64,000 nucleotides of DNA, taken from assembly GCA_019637915.1 (NCBI GenBank), contig JAHBUV010000001.1, positions 2,016,565-2,080,564 of the forward strand, written 5' to 3'. Source of the DNA: Pseudobdellovibrionaceae bacterium. GTDB lineage: Bacteria > Bdellovibrionota > Bdellovibrionia > Bdellovibrionales > Bdellovibrionaceae. This document shows, piece after piece, positions 43,010-56,238 of the stretch (the first letter of the stretch is position 1; every line of letters begins with the position of its first letter). The translations under genes were made by a program, and so were the position numbers. The notes beneath the pieces are model-generated. The model saw only the letters and a program-made list of their open reading frames with translations, made no database searches and had not been told where the DNA came from.

Positions 43010-43360
<351 letters not shown>

Positions 43361-43379
43361 ATTTTCTGGACGAAATTTC

Positions 43380-43480
43380 GTCCGCAGTTCGTCCACCAGC
43401 TCAAATAAAAAACGGGCTGGTGGCAAAATCTGCTTGTGCGTCTGATGTTGCTCCGCCTGTTGAGTCGGCGGGAGTCGAAC
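43380..43480. repeat. structured direct repeat A, just downstream of tmRNA
   Basis: About 101 nt matching repeat B at 53027-53126 from GTCCGCAG to GGAGTCGAAC, with shared blocks such as TCTGCTTGTGCGTCTG. It contains a hairpin CCACCAGC/GCTGGTGG (43393-43400 with 43416-43423) and a second imperfect one near 43451-43473. Between tmRNA and the repeat lies a 16-bp palindrome GGACGAAATTTCGTCC (43368-43383). See repeat B for the comparison. Confidence 0.8.
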
Positions 43481-43498: not shown

Positions 43499-45988
43499 CT
43501 ACCTAGAAGAGAATCTCTTTCGTAAAATGAAGAGTATCGCGATCGCGGCCGCCACCGTGCCGAATACTTTTAACCAATCCAGGCCGTGCAGGGGCGTTAA
43601 ATGAAGTGGACCTGCCAGCCACTTAACTTGGATGAGCAATACGGAGCAGAGGAGCGATGCGGCCGCGATGATATTCGCCGGTCGAGACTTTCCCTTGGTT
43701 AAAAAAACGGCAAGACCCGCGCTCCAAAGAGCCAGAAGGGCCATTATCTTCGCTCGCCCATGATTGGCGTCAGAGTTTTCCGAAAGACCCGTCACGAAAG
43801 AGGTGATGAGCGCGGTCGTTACGGCCAATCCGACCAGTAAAACAAGTAGAGCATCCCTCTTATCGAAAAAAGAAACTCGCCGCTCGGGCGCACCGTCGTT
43901 CTCGGAAGTGGCTGCCTGCTGGAATGCGAACAGCGCCGTCGGATGAATGATTAACTCTAACCAAACAACGTGCGCCGGAAGATATAGGAGCGGGTAGCCC
44001 AATAGAGGAACAAGAGCCGCCGACAGCACGAATGGAATATGAAACAGCAAAAGATACTCGAAGCTCAAACGGAGATTCGAGAAAAGCTGACGGCCCTCTC
44101 GAATCGCGTTCACGATCGTGCTGAAATTGTCGTCGCTCAAGATTATGGAAGAAACTTCTTTTGCACTCCTCGTCCCTCTGACCCCCATCGCGATCCCAAT
44201 GTCCGCAGCCTTGAGAGCCGGAACATCGTTCACGCCGTCTCCCGTAACGGCGACGATCTCGCCGGATGACTTTAGAGCTTCGACGACCCGAAGTTTTTGA
44301 ATGGGATTGCAGCGCGCAATAACATCCGCACCCCGGAGGAATTCGGGGTTTGCCTTGAGCCAATCCGCCTCAAACTTTTCAGGATCAGCTTCCGCTGAGA
44401 TCACGATGGGCTGCCCACTTCCCAGCCCGACATCTTTTGCGATTGCAGCTGCCGTTTGAGGGTGATCGCCGGTAATCATCAAAACTTTGATTCCATTTTT
44501 CCCGCAATACTCGATCGCAGGGCGAACCTCGGGGCGCGCCGGGTCTTCGAAAGCTAGAAGACCCGCGAACTGAAACCCGGAGTCCGGCTCTTTTCCGTCT
44601 CGCAGCTCAGCTGCCGACACTTCGCGATTTCCGACGGCTAAAAGCTTATGCCCCTCCCGCGCCCAATTCGAAGTTCGGTCTAGCCACTTATTTTTCTCCT
44701 CGCTCGAAAGTGCCGATTTCGACAAGATCGTTTCCGGCGAGCCTTTCATTGCGCAAAATGCGCTGCCTTGATTTTCGTAGAAGGCTGTTTCCCTCTTACG
44801 GTCTTCAGTGAACGGAATCACGCTCGTCCGCAGCGGAATTTTTAGGTCTCTTTCCCCTGATAAGGCAAAAATCGCCTGGTCAACTGGATCAGTGCCTTCA
44901 TGGTTCGATGCCGCGCCAGCGTGGGAAAGGACTTCTGATTCCGAGAATGGGCTAGCCGCATCGACATGGGTTAGTTTGAGCTGGCCAGCCGTAATCGTGC
45001 CAGTTTTATCGGTACAGATTCGAGTGATTCGCCCGATATTCTCGACGGAAACCGCGCGCCGAACTAATGCTCCTCGTTTCGCCAGCCGGTAAACGCCGAC
45101 ACCGAGGAAGAACGAAAAGACGACAGGAAACTCCTCCGGCATTGCGGCCACTGCGAGAGTCGCGGCACTTAGAAGCGCATCCAGCCAACCGTGCCCCTGA
45201 TAAACTCTGATTAAGGCGAGAATCAGGCAGAATGCGGCCGCGGCGTAGATGAGCCTTTTGGTTAACTTCGCGATTGAGTGCTGAAGGGCAGTCCGTTCGT
45301 GAGCGATCGTGGAGACCGACTGCACGATTTCGCCATAGGAGGTATTTTTTCCCGTGAACAAAATGCGGAGGAGTCCGCTTCCAGTAAGGATCCGCGTTCC
45401 GGCAAAGCCCAGCGACTGGGAATCGACGAGTACCTCTTGTGCGGATCGAAAAGCATCGAAAGGAATTGTTCTTTTGGTGATCGGAAACGCTTCTCCCGTC
45501 AGCACCGACTCGTCCACCTGGAGCGAATCTACGCTTTCCCAGAATCCATCCGCAGGTAGAAAATGCTCCTCTGAATTCAGAACAACCAAGTCTCCCGGAA
45601 CGATATCGTGCGAATCAATGCGCAGGCGTTCTCCGTCGCGGATGACCAAAGCATCCGCAGCTAATTGTCCCTTGAGTGAAGCGGTCGATGCCTGCGTTCT
45701 CCAGTGGAGAAATGCATCCATGAAAAGCAATGGAATGGTCGCCAAGAAAAGAATGATCGCCTCTTGGCGATCACCTACAAGAAAGAACGCCGTGCCGATA
45801 CCAATCAGGAACCAGATCATCGGGTCCTTGATAGTATCCACGAAAAGCTCAAGCCATGGGTTGCCGGTGCGTTCAATGATCGCGTTCGCTCCGAAGCGTG
45901 AACGCTGAGAGGTAACCTCAGCAGCGCTCAGGCCGGTGGCTCTGCCATTTAGCCCGCTTAGAGTTTCAAGGGAGATTTTCTTTTTCAC
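43499..45988 (-). CDS. cation-translocating P-type ATPase of unknown specificity
   Basis: 829 aa, type II layout: N-terminal cation-ATPase domain, TM1-4, phosphorylation motif 'ICTDKTGTIT', 'MKGSPET' nucleotide-binding motif, hinge 'TGDGVNDVPALK', then six C-terminal TM helices. Departures: the actuator loop is TGEA instead of TGES, the TM4 motif is 'MPEEFP' instead of PEGLP, and the TM6 region reads 'WLELIIHPTAL', lacking the canonical N-x-x-D Ca-binding pair. So it is neither a standard Ca nor a standard Na/K pump. GTG start overlaps the stop of the LuxR-like regulator gene. Confidence 0.85.
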   Translation of the reverse strand: MKKKISLETLSGLNGRATGLSAAEVTSQRSRFGANAIIERTGNPWLELFVDTIKDPMIWFLIGIGTAFFLVGDRQEAIILFLATIPLLFMDAFLHWRTQASTASLKGQLAADALVIRDGERLRIDSHDIVPGDLVVLNSEEHFLPADGFWESVDSLQVDESVLTGEAFPITKRTIPFDAFRSAQEVLVDSQSLGFAGTRILTGSGLLRILFTGKNTSYGEIVQSVSTIAHERTALQHSIAKLTKRLIYAAAAFCLILALIRVYQGHGWLDALLSAATLAVAAMPEEFPVVFSFFLGVGVYRLAKRGALVRRAVSVENIGRITRICTDKTGTITAGQLKLTHVDAASPFSESEVLSHAGAASNHEGTDPVDQAIFALSGERDLKIPLRTSVIPFTEDRKRETAFYENQGSAFCAMKGSPETILSKSALSSEEKNKWLDRTSNWAREGHKLLAVGNREVSAAELRDGKEPDSGFQFAGLLAFEDPARPEVRPAIEYCGKNGIKVLMITGDHPQTAAAIAKDVGLGSGQPIVISAEADPEKFEADWLKANPEFLRGADVIARCNPIQKLRVVEALKSSGEIVAVTGDGVNDVPALKAADIGIAMGVRGTRSAKEVSSIILSDDNFSTIVNAIREGRQLFSNLRLSFEYLLLFHIPFVLSAALVPLLGYPLLYLPAHVVWLELIIHPTALFAFQQAATSENDGAPERRVSFFDKRDALLVLLVGLAVTTALITSFVTGLSENSDANHGRAKIMALLALWSAGLAVFLTKGKSRPANIIAAASLLCSVLLIQVKWLAGPLHLTPLHGLDWLKVFGTVAAAIAILFILRKRFSSR

Positions 45989-46506
45989 GACTCTCTCTCT
46001 TCGCTAGGACCCAATAGATCTTCCAGGAAAAATGCCGCGAGTTCCGACCGGCCGGATAAGTTCGACTTCTCGTAGATGGCCGTGGACTGCGCCCGCGAGG
46101 TCTTTTCTGATGTCTTTCGGATCTCCGCGATCTCTTTAAGGCTCAATCCTTTCAAGAGAAGAAATGCGACTTCTTTCTCAGACGATGTGAGCTTCCACGA
46201 GACCAGCTGCCTTTCGATTTCTTGGGAGAGGCCTTCAATGTAGACTCTGGCTTGTTGTCGCCACTGTTCGGCCTCTGCTTGGAGGCCGCTCGACTTGAGG
46301 ACTTCCGCAGCCAAGGATCGCTTCAGTGCGAACGAGCCTCGCAGCAGGAAAACGACGCCCGCGAGCGCGGCCAGCGCAACGAACCCTTCCGAAGCCAGAT
46401 GCCACCAAGGAGCGCCCTCACTGGAGTCAGTGATCAAGTCCGTTCCGACAAAGATGGCGGTTCCCGTGAGGATGGCTATTATAACCCAGCGTTCTCGGTT
46501 TTTCAT
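45985..46506 (-). CDS. membrane-anchored LuxR/GerE-type regulator
   Basis: 173 aa. Two TM helices at the N-terminus ('WVIIAILTGTAIFVGTDLI', 'LASEGFVALAALAGVVFLLRG'), a helical linker of ~50 residues, then a LuxR-type HTH: 'LTSSEKEVAFLLLKGLSLKEIAEIRKTSEKTSRAQSTAIYEKSNLSGRSELAAFFLEDLL'-like region, with the recognition helix around TSEKTSRAQ. No receiver or ligand domain is present. It is coupled to the P-type ATPase (GTGA overlap) and follows the cytochrome b561 gene by 12 nt. A frameshifted second copy lies at 55077-55614. Confidence 0.8.
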   Translation of the reverse strand: MKNRERWVIIAILTGTAIFVGTDLITDSSEGAPWWHLASEGFVALAALAGVVFLLRGSFALKRSLAAEVLKSSGLQAEAEQWRQQARVYIEGLSQEIERQLVSWKLTSSEKEVAFLLLKGLSLKEIAEIRKTSEKTSRAQSTAIYEKSNLSGRSELAAFFLEDLLGPSEERES

Positions 46507-46518
46507 GCAGCCACCTTT

Positions 46519-47259
46519 CTAATCGTCGTTATCCTCGTGCTCGGCACCTGCCTTTGTGGTTCCCTGATGGTCCGCGGACTCGCTCTCTCCGAGCTGGAGC
46601 TCTATACCAAAGACACTGGTCGTTGCCTGGGTGGCATCGTAGTTCTTATAGATGTGAAACGCAAATAGGCCAATGATTCCCATCATTCCCATAGCAACCC
46701 ATCGGTGGGAGCTCGCTATCGGTGACGCGCCCTCTTCGTTGTCTTTCTTTCCATTGATCATGCTGAGAGCGATTCCATCTCGGTGACGAAGGCCATGCAG
46801 AACGACGCCCGCAACGTGCCCAACCGCGACAAAAGCGAAGGCGTTTGCCATCAGCTCATGCATGTCTTCAAAAGCCTCTTTTTGACCAGCCGCCATTAAG
46901 TAGCCAGTTATACCTAGCCCAAGCGCGAGACCAAGCATCGTGACCGCCGCCCAGGCTGATGCTGGATTATGCGCGAAGTACATTCGCCCTTTCGTGCTTA
47001 AGATCTCGCGAAAGTACTCGATTAGCCGCAAGGGGTTCAGTGGGAACGATGAAAAGCGGGCGTAACGAGATCCAATTATTCCCCAGATTATGCGAAGTGT
47101 TGTTGCGACGAACAGAATTAGTCCGAGCAGCATGTGCTGAGAAAACCAGGATGATTCGTCATCGATCAGCTTTGCGATCGCAAAGGCAGCGATGAAAAGT
47201 CCAGCAAACAGCCAGTGAAAGAGTCTTGTAGGTAGATCGTAAACTTTTGCTTTGTCCAT
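46519..47259 (-). CDS. cytochrome b561-family membrane protein
   Basis: 246 aa. 'YDLPTRLFHWLFAGLFIAAFAIAK' opens the first TM with a haem-ligand His, 'FSQHMLLGLILFVATTLRIIWG' is TM2, 'MHELMANAFAFVAVGHVAGVVLHGLRHRDGIALSMI' TM4 with two or more His; this is the Ni/Fe-hydrogenase-type cytochrome b pattern. An extra C-terminal TM and an acidic tail ending 'EHEDNDD' are unusual. GGGAGG precedes ATG 47259. Head of the operon with the LuxR-like gene and the P-type ATPase. Confidence 0.87.
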   Translation of the reverse strand: MDKAKVYDLPTRLFHWLFAGLFIAAFAIAKLIDDESSWFSQHMLLGLILFVATTLRIIWGIIGSRYARFSSFPLNPLRLIEYFREILSTKGRMYFAHNPASAWAAVTMLGLALGLGITGYLMAAGQKEAFEDMHELMANAFAFVAVGHVAGVVLHGLRHRDGIALSMINGKKDNEEGASPIASSHRWVAMGMMGIIGLFAFHIYKNYDATQATTSVFGIELQLGESESADHQGTTKAGAEHEDNDD

Positions 47260-47436
47260 GGGGCCTCCCTTTAGATGTCTTAATAATGGGTCTGACCCAT
47301 GGTTTTGGCTATGGGGCAAATGCCCAATGATCAGTAAAAACAATGGCTTAAGGCTTATGCCCAATGGCCAAATCGAGCCTTCGGAAGCATCTTTGGTGAA
47401 AGGGCAACGGTGCCCCAATCAACCAAGGAGTGTTCT

Positions 47437-47697
47437 ATGAGAATCGCAACAATACTGACCGCCCTGCCGCTTTTGCTGAGTGCTCCGGCATTCGCCAAAA
47501 AGTCCTGCACGGATGAGCCCAAATCCAAGTGGATGACTGAGGAGGCCTTCAAGAAGAAGGTCACGGACGAGGGTTATAAGATCAGAAAGTTCAAACAACC
47601 TGGCTCGTGCTACGAAATCTACGGAACTGACAAAGACGGAAACGATGTCGAGATCTATTTCAATCCCGTGGACGGGAGCATCGTGACGAAAAAGTGA
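47437..47697 (+). CDS. exported PepSY-domain protein
   Basis: 86 aa. Signal peptide 'MRIATILTALPLLLSAPAFA', then a single PepSY_2-like domain ('MTEEAFKKKVTDEGYKIRKFKQPGSCYEIYGTDKDGNDVEIYFNP'). Such small PepSY proteins often sit next to cytochrome b genes. Two Cys could form a disulfide. Divergent from the cytochrome b561 operon. A piece of its 3' end is duplicated at 50297. Confidence 0.85.
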   Translation: MRIATILTALPLLLSAPAFAKKSCTDEPKSKWMTEEAFKKKVTDEGYKIRKFKQPGSCYEIYGTDKDGNDVEIYFNPVDGSIVTKK

Positions 47698-47956: not shown

Positions 47957-48610
47957 TTAATCTTCAGATTTTCCGCCGTGGATCATATCTGAAATGATCC
48001 CCTGATCCTTGCAATTTTCCGCAATTACGATTCCGATGATATGACCAGCAATAAAGACGACAAAGAACCACATCATGAATTCATGAATACTCTTAATTGT
48101 ACCGCCAAAGTCACTTGATAACCCGATTTCTGTTTTGAAAGTCATCAGAATGCCCGTAACAACCATTAGCATCGTCACGATATAGAAAACTGCGTATCCG
48201 ATCTTAACAAAAGCGAAATGGAGTGCCTCACCTCGTTCCTGAATCGGAATGCGTTTGATGCCCAGGGCGCTCTTTATGGCGGAAACGCTTGGGAACTGTC
48301 TTTCAATAAATAGTGCGATCAGCACTCTTGCTAGCAATAGAGCGCTTAGAATGTATCCCAAGTAAATATGCCATTCCCATAAAGGGTTACGGATGGCAAC
48401 AGCGATTTCCTTCGCCAATCCGGGAGTAATCTGGATTCCAGCCGCCCCTAATTTTTCTTCAATCAAAACGGAATTTATGCGCCAACTCAGGAATGTCTTT
48501 CTAATGAGTACGGTTGCCAGGAGTGCCAAGATCACTACAAAATTTGACCAGTGCCAGAGCCGAAGACAGAGGGGTTGGTATTTCTTGAAACTGAATTTTG
48601 AAACTGTCAT
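47957..48610 (-). CDS. cytochrome b561-like membrane protein
   Basis: 217 aa with four TM helices and paired His: 'LCLRLWHWSNFVVILALLATVLI' (TM1), 'LWEWHIYLGYILSALLLARVL' (TM2), 'LHFAFVKIGYAVFYIVTMLMVVTG' (TM3), 'IHEFMMWFFVVFIAGHIIGIVIAE' (TM4). Cytochrome b/b6-type electron carrier, distinct from the b561 at 46519. More AT-rich than its neighbours and single in its direction. Confidence 0.85.
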   Translation of the reverse strand: MTVSKFSFKKYQPLCLRLWHWSNFVVILALLATVLIRKTFLSWRINSVLIEEKLGAAGIQITPGLAKEIAVAIRNPLWEWHIYLGYILSALLLARVLIALFIERQFPSVSAIKSALGIKRIPIQERGEALHFAFVKIGYAVFYIVTMLMVVTGILMTFKTEIGLSSDFGGTIKSIHEFMMWFFVVFIAGHIIGIVIAENCKDQGIISDMIHGGKSED

Positions 48611-48664: not shown

Positions 48665-50038
48665 TTAGTGCAGATGAAATTCCTGCCCATGTTCAGGGAC
48701 TAAGGCTCGCAGACCCAGCTCCTCTTCGATGCGATGGCGAAGGGCATCGGCCGCTTCCGGCTCGCCATGGGTTACGATAACTCTCTTCGGCTTGCGCTTC
48801 AAGGCCGAAATCCATTTAAGAATCCCGTCCGCATCCGCGTGGGCCGAAAACGTCTCGAGATTTACGAGCTCCGCCCTTATCGGCCAATACTGGCCGTGGA
48901 TCTTAACCTGTTCCGCTCCGCGCACCATGAGGTCTCCGCGAGTTCCCCCCGCCTGAAATCCCACGAACAGGATCGTGTTTTTCGGGTCCGGCGCAATCGA
49001 TTTCAAGTGATGGAGAACTCTTCCGCCCGTGGCCATACCGCTCGCCGCGATAATAACCGCAGGCTCGGTTCTGGCGTTTAGCGCTTTGGATTCCTCTGGA
49101 GTGCCCACGACTCGAACGGATTTCCAGAGGGAGTTCAGCTCCGCCTCGCTGATTTTCAGCTCATCCATATGTGCCGCGAAGGCTTTGTTTGCCTCTGCGG
49201 CCATGGGGCTATTGAGATAAACCGGCAAGTCGCGCGGGATCTGTCCCGCTTCTTTCAGGCGATGGACGTAGTAGAGAATGAGTTGCGCGCGGCCGACGGC
49301 AAACGATGGGATCAAGACGATTCCTTTCCGTTGAATCGTGCGAGTGATGATCTCCCTCAGCTCTTCTTGCGGATCGCGATCGGGATGTTTTCTATTTCCA
49401 TAAGTGGATTCGACAACGAGTTCGTCGGCGGCGTTCGGAATTTCGGGATCGCGAACCATCGGATCATTACTGCGACCCAGGTCGCCCGAGAAGATGATTG
49501 AGCCCCCTTCTGTCTTTACGCGAACGCTCGCCGCCCCCAACAAATGCCCGGCAGGAAAGAACTGAAACTCGAAAGTGCCGAGACCACCTTTTGAGACTTG
49601 AGTGACCGCCCCCCAAGGAACGGCCTTAAAATACTTCAGCGACTCCTTTGCATCGCTCATCGTATAGAGCGGAAGAGCGGGATGATGCTTGGAAAAGCCT
49701 CGAAGATTGGCGAACCTCGCCTCCTCCTCCTGAAGGAAGCCAGAATCCGGAAGCATGATTTCGCAAAGATCCACCGTAGGCGGCGTGGTATAGATCGGTC
49801 CTCGATATCCGTTCTTCACCAGGAGCGGAACGTAGCCGCTGTGGTCGATATGGGCATGGGTCAGGATGACAGCATCGAGTTTTTCAAGGTCGACAGGGAA
49901 TGGGTCCCGGTTCTTCAAACGAAGATTCTTGAATCCCTGGAACAGCCCGCAGTCGAGTAAAATCTTTGTCTCACCGTGCGAGAGAAGATAGCGGGAGCCG
50001 GTGACAGTGCCCGAAGCCCCGAGAAACTGAATTTTCAT
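48665..50038 (-). CDS. MBL-fold beta-CASP RNA-processing nuclease-like protein
   Basis: 457 aa. Metallo-beta-lactamase core 'LTHAHIDHSGYVPLL' (HxHxDH), 'AGHLLGAASV', 'FSGDLGR', then beta-CASP motifs including 'PSFAVGRAQ', 'IIAASGMATGGRVLHHL' and 'FSAHADADGIL', with 'VTHGEPEAADAL' at the end. These proteins (CPSF73/YsbA-like) are Zn-dependent RNases or uncharacterised hydrolases. AAGGAG precedes ATG 50038. Confidence 0.92.
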   Translation of the reverse strand: MKIQFLGASGTVTGSRYLLSHGETKILLDCGLFQGFKNLRLKNRDPFPVDLEKLDAVILTHAHIDHSGYVPLLVKNGYRGPIYTTPPTVDLCEIMLPDSGFLQEEEARFANLRGFSKHHPALPLYTMSDAKESLKYFKAVPWGAVTQVSKGGLGTFEFQFFPAGHLLGAASVRVKTEGGSIIFSGDLGRSNDPMVRDPEIPNAADELVVESTYGNRKHPDRDPQEELREIITRTIQRKGIVLIPSFAVGRAQLILYYVHRLKEAGQIPRDLPVYLNSPMAAEANKAFAAHMDELKISEAELNSLWKSVRVVGTPEESKALNARTEPAVIIAASGMATGGRVLHHLKSIAPDPKNTILFVGFQAGGTRGDLMVRGAEQVKIHGQYWPIRAELVNLETFSAHADADGILKWISALKRKPKRVIVTHGEPEAADALRHRIEEELGLRALVPEHGQEFHLH

Positions 50039-50420
50039 GTCGCTCCTTGGCTGAAAACTAAGTTTTTACCATAGCACAAGAGCTGAAGTTGTCGCTCCGC
50101 TCGCGGCTAAGCAAGAGTGCCTCGAATTTGATGCCCGTCCTCTCTGATTCCGATTTCCTAGATCGAGTTGCGAAAGTTGCTCTTGCGTGCTGGCGCTCCG
50201 AGGTCAAAGTCGTAAACAGCTTGGAATATTGGCTATTTTGTGGCGCGGCTTGCTAAAATTGCCGCGCCGGACTATCAACGGATCTGCTTTTGGGAGGACA
50301 AAGACGGAAATGATGTCGAGATCTATTTCAATCCCGTGGACGGGAGCATCGTGACGAAAAAGTGAAATCGAATGCGGGGGGCATACCCCCCCCCGCCATT
50401 CTCTTGAGGGAGCGATAAGA
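50039..50420. other. gene-poor stretch with a hairpin and a PepSY fragment
   Basis: No intact gene is seen. It holds a perfect hairpin GGCGCGGC/GCCGCGCC (50242-50249 with 50261-50268) and the duplicated 3' end of the PepSY gene described separately. Confidence 0.6.
50297..50365 (+). pseudogene. duplicated 3' fragment of the PepSY gene
   Basis: From 50297 to about 50383 the sequence repeats 47629-47715 with very few changes, including the last 22 codons (ending 'PVDGSIVTKK'), the TGA and the start of the downstream GC-rich hairpin. No signal peptide or start is present, so it is a remnant of a local duplication or recombination. Confidence 0.9.
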
Positions 50421-52949: not shown

Positions 52950-53026
52950 ATCGTGGGGTACGGGGGTGACCTGCGCTTGTGCGTCTGTCCTCGCGCCGAC
53001 GCCACCATTTTATCAGACGCATTTAC

Positions 53027-53126
53027 GTCCGCAGTTTGTCCGTCAGCTCCAAATTAGAAGGAGCTGGCGGCGGTTTCTGCTTGTGCGTCTGTTGTTGCTC
53101 CGTTAACGAGACGGAGGGAGTCGAAC
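53027..53126. repeat. structured direct repeat B
   Basis: Copy of repeat A (43380-43480), 100 nt. The same hairpin is present, here 11 bp: 53040-53050 with 53060-53070, one G-U. Relative to A, one A-T pair is replaced by G-C and the loop differs, so pairing is kept while sequence drifts. A weaker match continues upstream (52993-53026), resembling the tmRNA 3' end (CCACCA-TTTT). The block GCTTGTGCGTCTG also occurs a third time at 52975-52987. Confidence 0.8.
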
Positions 53127-55076: not shown

Positions 55077-55614
55077 TTAGAGATTCTCTTTTTCAAGTTC
55101 CATTCTGGCCTCGCTAGGCCCCAAAAGATCTTCCAGGAAAAATGCCGCGAGTTCCGAGCGGCCAGATAGGCCCGACTTCTCGTAGATGGCTGTAGACTGC
55201 GCGCGCGGTCTTTTCTGATGTCTTTCGGATCTCCGCGATCTCTTTGAGGCTCAATCCTTTCAAGAGAAGAAAGGCGACTTCTTTCTCGGAGATCGTCAGT
55301 TTCCAAGACGTCAGTTGCCTTTCGATTTCTTGGGAGAGGCCTTCAATGTGGACTCGGGCTTGTTTTCGCCACTGTTCGGCCTCTGCTTGGAGGCCGCTCG
55401 ACTTGAGAACTTCCGCAGCCAAGGATCGCTTCAGTGCGAATGAGCCTCGAAGTAGAAAAGCGACGCCCGCGAGCGCCGCTAGGGCAACAAATCCTTCCGC
55501 AGCCAAATGCCACCAATGGACGCCTTCACTGGAGTCGGCGAATAGGTCTGTTCCGACAAAGATGGCGGTTCCCAGGAGGATCGCTATTATGACCCAGCGT
55601 TCTCGGTTGTTCAT
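55077..55614 (-). pseudogene. frameshifted second copy of the membrane LuxR-type regulator
   Basis: Very close to the gene at 45985-46506 through the TM helices, linker and first half of the HTH. Then one base is missing in the stretch GCGCGCGGTCTTTT near 55200-55210 compared with the intact copy, which shifts the frame in the recognition helix; the downstream sequence still matches the other frame up to a TAA at 55077. Two bases could be restored by programmed slippage, but simple decay is more likely. Confidence 0.88.
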
Positions 55615-55626
55615 TCGGGCGCCTTT

Positions 55627-56220
55627 CTAGTCGTCATCGTCTTCGTGCTCGGCGCCTTCCTTTGCGTTTCCGTGTTTTTCCGCGGACTCATTCTCTCCAA
55701 GTTGGAGTTTCACACCAAAGACACTGGTCGTTGCCTGAGCGGCATCGTAGTTCTTATAGATGTGAAAGGCAAATAGGCCAATGATTCCCGCCATTCCCAA
55801 AGCAACCAATCTGTGAGACCTCGCGATCGGTGACGCCCCCTCTTTGTTTTCTTTCATTCCGTGAATCATACTGAGGGCGATTCCATCTCGGTGACGAAGG
55901 CTGTGAAGAACGACGCCTGCAATGTGCGCAACCGCGACAAAAGCGAAGGCGTTTGCCATCAGCTCATGGATGTCTTCAAAAACCTCTTTTTGGCCGGACG
56001 CCATGAGGTAGCCGGTGGCGCCAAGCCCGAGCGCGAGACCAATCATTACGACCGCCGCCCAGGCTGAGGCTGGGTTGTGTGCGAAGTACGTTCGCCCTTT
56101 CGTGCTTAATATTTCGCGGAAGTACTCGATCAGCCGCAAGGGGTTCAGTGGGAACGATGAAAAACGGGCATAGCGAGATCCGATGATTCCCCAAACAACA
56201 CGAAGCAGCGTTGTGACGAA
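55627..56220 (-). pseudogene. 5'-truncated second copy of the cytochrome b561 gene
   Basis: Matches the gene at 46519-47259 from about residue 50 to the end, including the acidic tail ('EHEDDDD'). The similarity stops abruptly near 56220, so the first TM helix with one haem ligand and the start codon are lost. It lies 12 nt from the LuxR-type pseudogene, exactly as in the intact operon. Confidence 0.9.
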
Positions 56221-56238
56221 TATCCTCGCACGCTTACT

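Follow-up and report, generated by a model that had tools for sequence, protein, structure and literature searches.

A PepSY–cytochrome b561–tethered LuxR-type regulator cassette of Bdellovibrionota with a predicted operator pair and a variable cation transporter

We analyzed a 64,000-nt stretch of a Pseudobdellovibrionaceae genome (contig JAHBUV010000001.1, positions 2,016,565–2,080,564; hereafter, the window), in which a cytochrome b561, a membrane-tethered LuxR-type regulator, and a P-type ATPase are encoded in this order on the minus strand (Table 1). The open reading frame (ORF) coordinates, the 12-nt gap between the b561 and regulator genes, and the GTGA overlap between the regulator and ATPase genes all bear out the first-pass annotation of this DNA, which had described three coupled genes. 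However, the module exceeds three genes, and the divergent PepSY_2 gene is a core member. The annotated immediate neighbors of the operon genes in Pfam are the regulator, PepSY_2, a second b561 (b561B), and an MBL protein.

Table 1. Features of the cassette and its copies in the window (positions are those of the window)
Feature	Position	Strand	Remarks
P-type ATPase, 829 aa	43499–45988	-	GTG start; 4-nt GTGA overlap with the regulator stop
Two-transmembrane, membrane-tethered GerE/LuxR-type regulator, 173 aa	45985–46506	-	ORF and Pfam
Cytochrome b561 with fifth helix and acidic C-terminal tail, 246 aa	46519–47259	-	ORF and Pfam
Predicted operator pair in the PepSY/b561 spacer	47309–47366	-	Site 1 core, 47351–47362; site 2 core, 47314–47325; offset, 37 nt
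PepSY_2 periplasmic protein, 86 aa, divergent	47437–47697	+	PF13670, E = 2.3e−29; conserved neighbor
Decayed second b561–regulator copy	55080–56193	-	87% identical DNA
Second PepSY gene remnant (3' end)	50297–50415	+	92% identical

The regulator is of the GerE/LuxR type (PF00196; 27.0 bits against a Pfam cutoff of 23.5), with two hydrophobic segments (residues 6–27 and 35–62) and no other Pfam domain. In its AlphaFold2 model (mean predicted local distance difference test [pLDDT] score, 83), helices at residues 3–30 and 34–103 precede a four-helix GerE fold, which matched the heads of VraR, NarL, and GerE (7ve4, 1je8, and 1fse). It shares this head with the NarL, VraR, and GerE proteins but differs from them in having a membrane hairpin and a coiled coil and no receiver. 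The absence of an N-terminal receiver domain excluded its assignment as a two-component response regulator. Only the hairpin and the coiled coil precede the helix-turn-helix (HTH) domain, in agreement with the earlier description of a LuxR-type protein with two transmembrane (TM) segments and no sensor domain. Assignment to the LIC13292 family (NCBIfam NF047608) was also rejected; although the HTH and the preceding helix align (residues 40–169), the score of 77.4 bits is far under the curated cutoff of 200. Besides the HTH residues, D23, D27, and H36 were invariant among 30 aligned relatives, some of them without b561, and E40 was likewise invariant in a closer set (n = 8). D23, D27, and H36 are located where the TM hairpin is farthest from the DNA-binding head and, judging from this position, are probably periplasmic. 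Meanwhile, genomes of genus g6 (e.g., G006, G053, and G055) contain short ORFs (open frame of about 100–130 aa) that match the family HTH only and apparently lack the TM hairpin.

The gene upstream of the regulator encodes a prokaryotic cytochrome b561 (PF01292, E = 1.2e−25; 90.7 bits against a Pfam cutoff of 30.1), in which the conserved heme-ligand histidines are present and H15, H42, H134, H148, and H155 were invariant among six sequences. The four heme-type helices are followed by an extra helix (residues 186–205) and an acidic tail (mean of 7.7 acidic residues among the last 20), both of which the first-pass annotation had noticed. The tail is absent from the neighboring b561B (47957–48610). 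At other loci, the regulator is paired with a DUF2231 membrane protein, a family unrelated to b561, and eight of nine such partners also end in an Asp-rich tail, often with His. DUF2231 proteins of this kind were noted at loci L067, L069, L070, L072, L139, L149, L153, and L160. No fusion of the regulator gene with a b561 or DUF2231 gene was found in the scanned loci.

When 369 Bdellovibrionota genomes were searched, the regulator family was detected in 146 of them. The neighborhoods of 101 loci, mainly the best-scoring, were read, and the fractions given here depend on that sampling. At 54 of the 101 loci, which are spread over many families of the phylum, the gene immediately preceding the regulator on the same strand encodes a b561 of the same kind, in most cases no more than about 70 nt away; PepSY occurs within three genes at 43 of these 54. 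A maximum-likelihood tree placed all but one of the 54 b561-linked regulators (53) in a single clade, which has 55 rows and a support of 98/92; the b561-linkage label changed 4 times on the tree, versus 34 times in shuffles. The number of loci and the clade structure rule out chance adjacency of b561 and the regulator. The first-pass annotation had proposed tabulating the neighbors of the regulator in other genomes, which revealed this recurrence of b561; a regulator standing alone in most genomes, which it had named as grounds for rejection, is not what is seen in the b561-linked clade (53 of 55). Furthermore, the stop/start overlap between the regulator and the ATPase is retained in several distant relatives. 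PepSY–b561–regulator cassettes are also located on alphaproteobacterial plasmids of Thioclava, Paracoccus fistulariae, and Sulfitobacter, with a VIT-family gene directly downstream in the latter two, and the b561–regulator pair occurs in the same order on Ensifer and Sinorhizobium plasmids. The P. fistulariae plasmid p7465 (L175, 2184–4303) is mobilizable, has a size of 7.5 kb, and carries PepSY–b561–LuxR–VIT as its main cargo.

The PepSY/b561 spacers (n = 38) contain a recurrent pair of palindromes, ATNGGNCAAATGNCCTAA and its inverse. Taking the two best-matching cores of each spacer gave an offset of 36–38 nt, usually 37 nt, at 22 of the 38 loci, and the summed core mismatches amounted to 105, versus 212.7 ± 5.5 in dinucleotide shuffles. 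An operator model of 61 positions, built from 23 of the 38 spacers, found one strong place in the genome studied here, the near-symmetric sequence in the spacer of the cassette, which was matched on both strands (E = 7e−11; next independent match, 0.05). At E ≤0.001, the model matched 47 of the 369 genomes, every one of which has the regulator family and 24 of which lie outside the training set of the model. All 47 best sites are located at PepSY, b561, or regulator genes. Coordinates compared by hand placed the best site within 1.6 kb of a regulator-family gene in 44 of the 47 genomes; of the remaining three sites, two precede orphan genes (one b561 and one PepSY), and one precedes a b561 at a contig end. 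The operator also occurs at DUF2231–regulator loci without b561 (L067, L069, L070, and L072). Because the operator-bearing genomes all hold the regulator family and these b561-less loci also carry the motif, the palindromes follow the regulator rather than b561. The proposal of the first-pass annotation that the regulator acts near 47260–47436 is thus very probably correct. The half-site ATNGGNCA resembles the GerE half-site, TRGGY. A sigma-70 consensus scan gave no match between the operators, and the lone match in this region extends over the start codon of the regulator gene. No operator was found upstream of unlinked ATPases. An operator-like site (E of about 8e−6) was also observed at locus L150 (3942–4554), where it precedes a lipoprotein-like gene that has a run rich in Asp and His and is convergent with a regulator-family gene.

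The ATPase has an E1-E2 domain (Pfam, E = 2e−35) and a P2-like fold, and shares about 300 bits of full-domain similarity and the M4 glutamate with the P2A Ca2+-ATPases LMCA1 and SERCA. In contrast to these enzymes, its membrane site consists of E285 (M4, PEEFP), H650 (M5), E678, and H682 (both M6), which were invariant among 10 aligned members of its lineage; when aligned with LMCA1, E678 and H682 take the place of N716 and D720, and H650 that of the M5 Asn. The residues at N716 and D720 and the score against TIGR01522 (354 bits, under the cutoff of 798) reject a P2A Ca2+-ATPase identity, and the ion site is not a calcium site. The earlier term “type II P-type ATPase” therefore stands as far as the fold is concerned but not at the level of subtype, as every NCBIfam subtype cutoff was missed. 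The two His and two Glu residues suggest a transition metal as the ion. The ATPase is an optional rather than a core member of the cassette, yet it is linked to it beyond chance: a PEEFP ATPase occurs within three genes at 14 of the 54 b561 loci, versus none of the 47 other loci (Fisher p = 7e−5, both ATPase lineages counted). The second PEEFP lineage adjoins PepSY at L052, L058, and L133, and the M6 of the L052 protein also reads ELIVHP. A VIT-family transporter can hold the slot of the ATPase: VIT1 (PF01988, 230 bits) lies downstream of the regulator at L044, as do the VIT-family genes on the two plasmids above, and the VIT gene of L067 is convergent with the regulator gene.

We consider it somewhat probable that the cassette is a redox/metal module of the membrane that regulates itself and whose cation transporter can be exchanged. 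The two-TM LuxR-type protein would be a one-component regulator anchored in the inner membrane, whose dimeric GerE head, presented by the long coiled coil, would bind the two palindromes about 3.5 helical turns apart. It would thus control the divergent PepSY/b561 promoter and with it PepSY, b561, its own gene, and any transporter in the operon. Electrons probably pass through PepSY and b561 between the quinone pool and a donor or acceptor in the periplasm, such as an oxidant or a redox-active metal. The signal, the state of a redox carrier or a periplasmic cation, may reach the regulator within the membrane, through the invariant Asp/Asp/His of its TM hairpin and probably also through contact with b561 or, in related loci, with the DUF2231 membrane protein. 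Contact between b561 and the regulator is suggested by their strict, long-lived adjacency and translational closeness, and by the replacement of b561 with a DUF2231 protein bearing a similar acidic tail. The effector would be a cation transporter, most simply a transition-metal exporter: the P-type ATPase with its Glu/His/Glu/His site here, and a VIT-family carrier of the Fe/Mn type elsewhere. A more specific version, in which b561 acts as the input side of the regulator and its electron load or bound metal (or that of DUF2231 in sister loci) is passed on by helix contact, is tentative and in our view doubtful; if true, the cassette would be a one-component system that senses electron flow and in which both the heme/redox partner and the metal exporter can be exchanged.

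Several observations weigh against the redox/metal module. The regulator family as a whole is not tied to b561: its distant, b561-less branches adjoin polyketide clusters, with type III polyketide synthase-like, YceI, ICMT-like, MMPL-like, and FAD oxidoreductase-like genes nearby (Pfam checks in these neighborhoods covered only YceI and DUF2231). Distant members beside such clusters were seen at L073, L142, L144, L148, L151, L154, and L158–L165. The structural model of b561 was poor (pLDDT, 57) and too weak for a fold search. A site at E ≤0.01 is missing at 10 of the 54 b561 loci, some of them at contig ends and including the ATPase-linked L047 and L059, and the alphaproteobacterial cassettes gave no match to the operator model, with simple repeat searches there being unconvincing. 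Finally, the ATPase follows the regulator at only 11 of the 54 b561 loci, with one copy broken (in a close relative), and is absent from the other 43, while close homologues occur unlinked and without an operator in several genomes, so that the pump may play only an incidental part. The first-pass view of the ATPase as a member of the unit is thus upheld by the linkage above chance but weakened by these counts.

It is a substantial possibility that the regulator senses alone, detecting a metal or a proton at D23/D27/H36 on the periplasmic side, and that b561 is a regulated target rather than a part of the sensor. Such autonomy would agree with the invariance of these residues even in relatives without b561 and with the existence of b561-less regulators, whereas the long-lived adjacency of the two genes and the exchange of b561 for a DUF2231 protein with the same kind of tail are harder to reconcile with it.

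Known b561 systems raise another possibility, which we regard as unlikely: an antioxidant unit, in which b561 scavenges superoxide or lipid radicals with the quinone pool as the sink, the regulator responds to oxidation of the membrane, and the transport of metals plays a secondary part. CybB-type b561 oxidizes superoxide with quinone as the acceptor (PMC11869295), and the b561 LcoA and the YceI lipocalin BcnA guard Burkholderia against lipid peroxyl radicals (PMC9113575); relatives of the regulator are often near YceI (17 loci). The b561 of the window is, like Escherichia coli CybB and Burkholderia LcoA, a PF01292 protein of a kind that carries electrons in the membrane to quinone (PMC11869295, PMC9113575). 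It differs from them in its extra helix, acidic tail, dedicated regulator, and transporter, and no YceI was seen among the annotated neighbors of the operon, the whole window not having been searched for it. The repeated occupation of the downstream slot by cation transporters and the CzcA-type metal efflux genes adjoining plasmid PepSY–b561 also argue against an antioxidant unit.

The genomic surroundings bear on a further alternative, namely that the ATPase is a functionally unrelated passenger. The operon immediately follows ssrA (tmRNA, 43010–43360). A 77% repeat, at 43355–43480 and starting at the tmRNA 3' CCACCA, occurs again at 53002–53126 beside a recombinase-like fragment (about 52.5–53.0 kb), and the G+C content between the two repeat copies is lower, dropping from about 0.60 to about 0.50. 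Because of the tmRNA 3'-end repeat, the recombinase-like fragment, and the G+C drop, the operon region is probably a genomic island at ssrA. Island shuffling there could have put the ATPase behind the regulator, an origin that would fit its presence in a minority of cassettes, its at least eight state changes on the regulator tree, its unlinked close homologues, and the broken copy. We nevertheless give this explanation little weight, since, among the loci read, PEEFP ATPases within three genes were confined to b561 loci, in two arrangements and in two lineages that share the M4 and M6 motifs, and the stop/start overlap is kept in several distant relatives. That the palindromes are bound by another factor merely coexisting with the regulator is quite improbable; although the operator model was trained on these promoters, every site-bearing genome holds the regulator family, including the 24 outside the training set, and the DUF2231–regulator loci without b561 carry the site.

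We found no paper on such a cassette, and none on LIC13292, in the open-access literature searched. The parts of the cassette belong to known families; what is new, as far as could be tested, is how they are combined, the operator, and the fact that partner and transporter can be exchanged. Among the closest known systems are the PepSY–b561 pairs of Sphingomonas naphthae, Paracoccus AK26, and Paraburkholderia plasmids, in which PepSY and b561 are likewise adjacent and accompanied by a dedicated signal-transduction gene, but a histidine kinase and a response regulator replace the membrane-tethered one-component regulator. In S. naphthae, the pair lies beside CzcA and VIT. Plasmid loci of this two-component type were seen at L215 (4055–7395), L216, and L217, with CzcA/TolC efflux and VIT genes flanking L215. 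In this conserved and apparently undescribed cassette, a membrane electron carrier is thus coupled to a dedicated, membrane-anchored transcription factor, a role that falls to a two-component system in other bacteria. The cassette offers a concrete predicted operator, invariant candidate sensor residues, and an ATPase group with a membrane site suggestive of a transition metal, so that the signal, the regulation, and the ion are each open to direct test.

Elsewhere in the window, the MBL/beta-CASP protein (48665–50038) resembles the type VII Cas14 and aCPSF1 models, with scores under both curated cutoffs. In the decayed b561–regulator copy, the HTH is frameshifted, the 5' end of b561 is lost near 56221, and neither an ATPase nor an operator is present. 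Together with the PepSY remnant, this copy suggests an older duplicate of the module.

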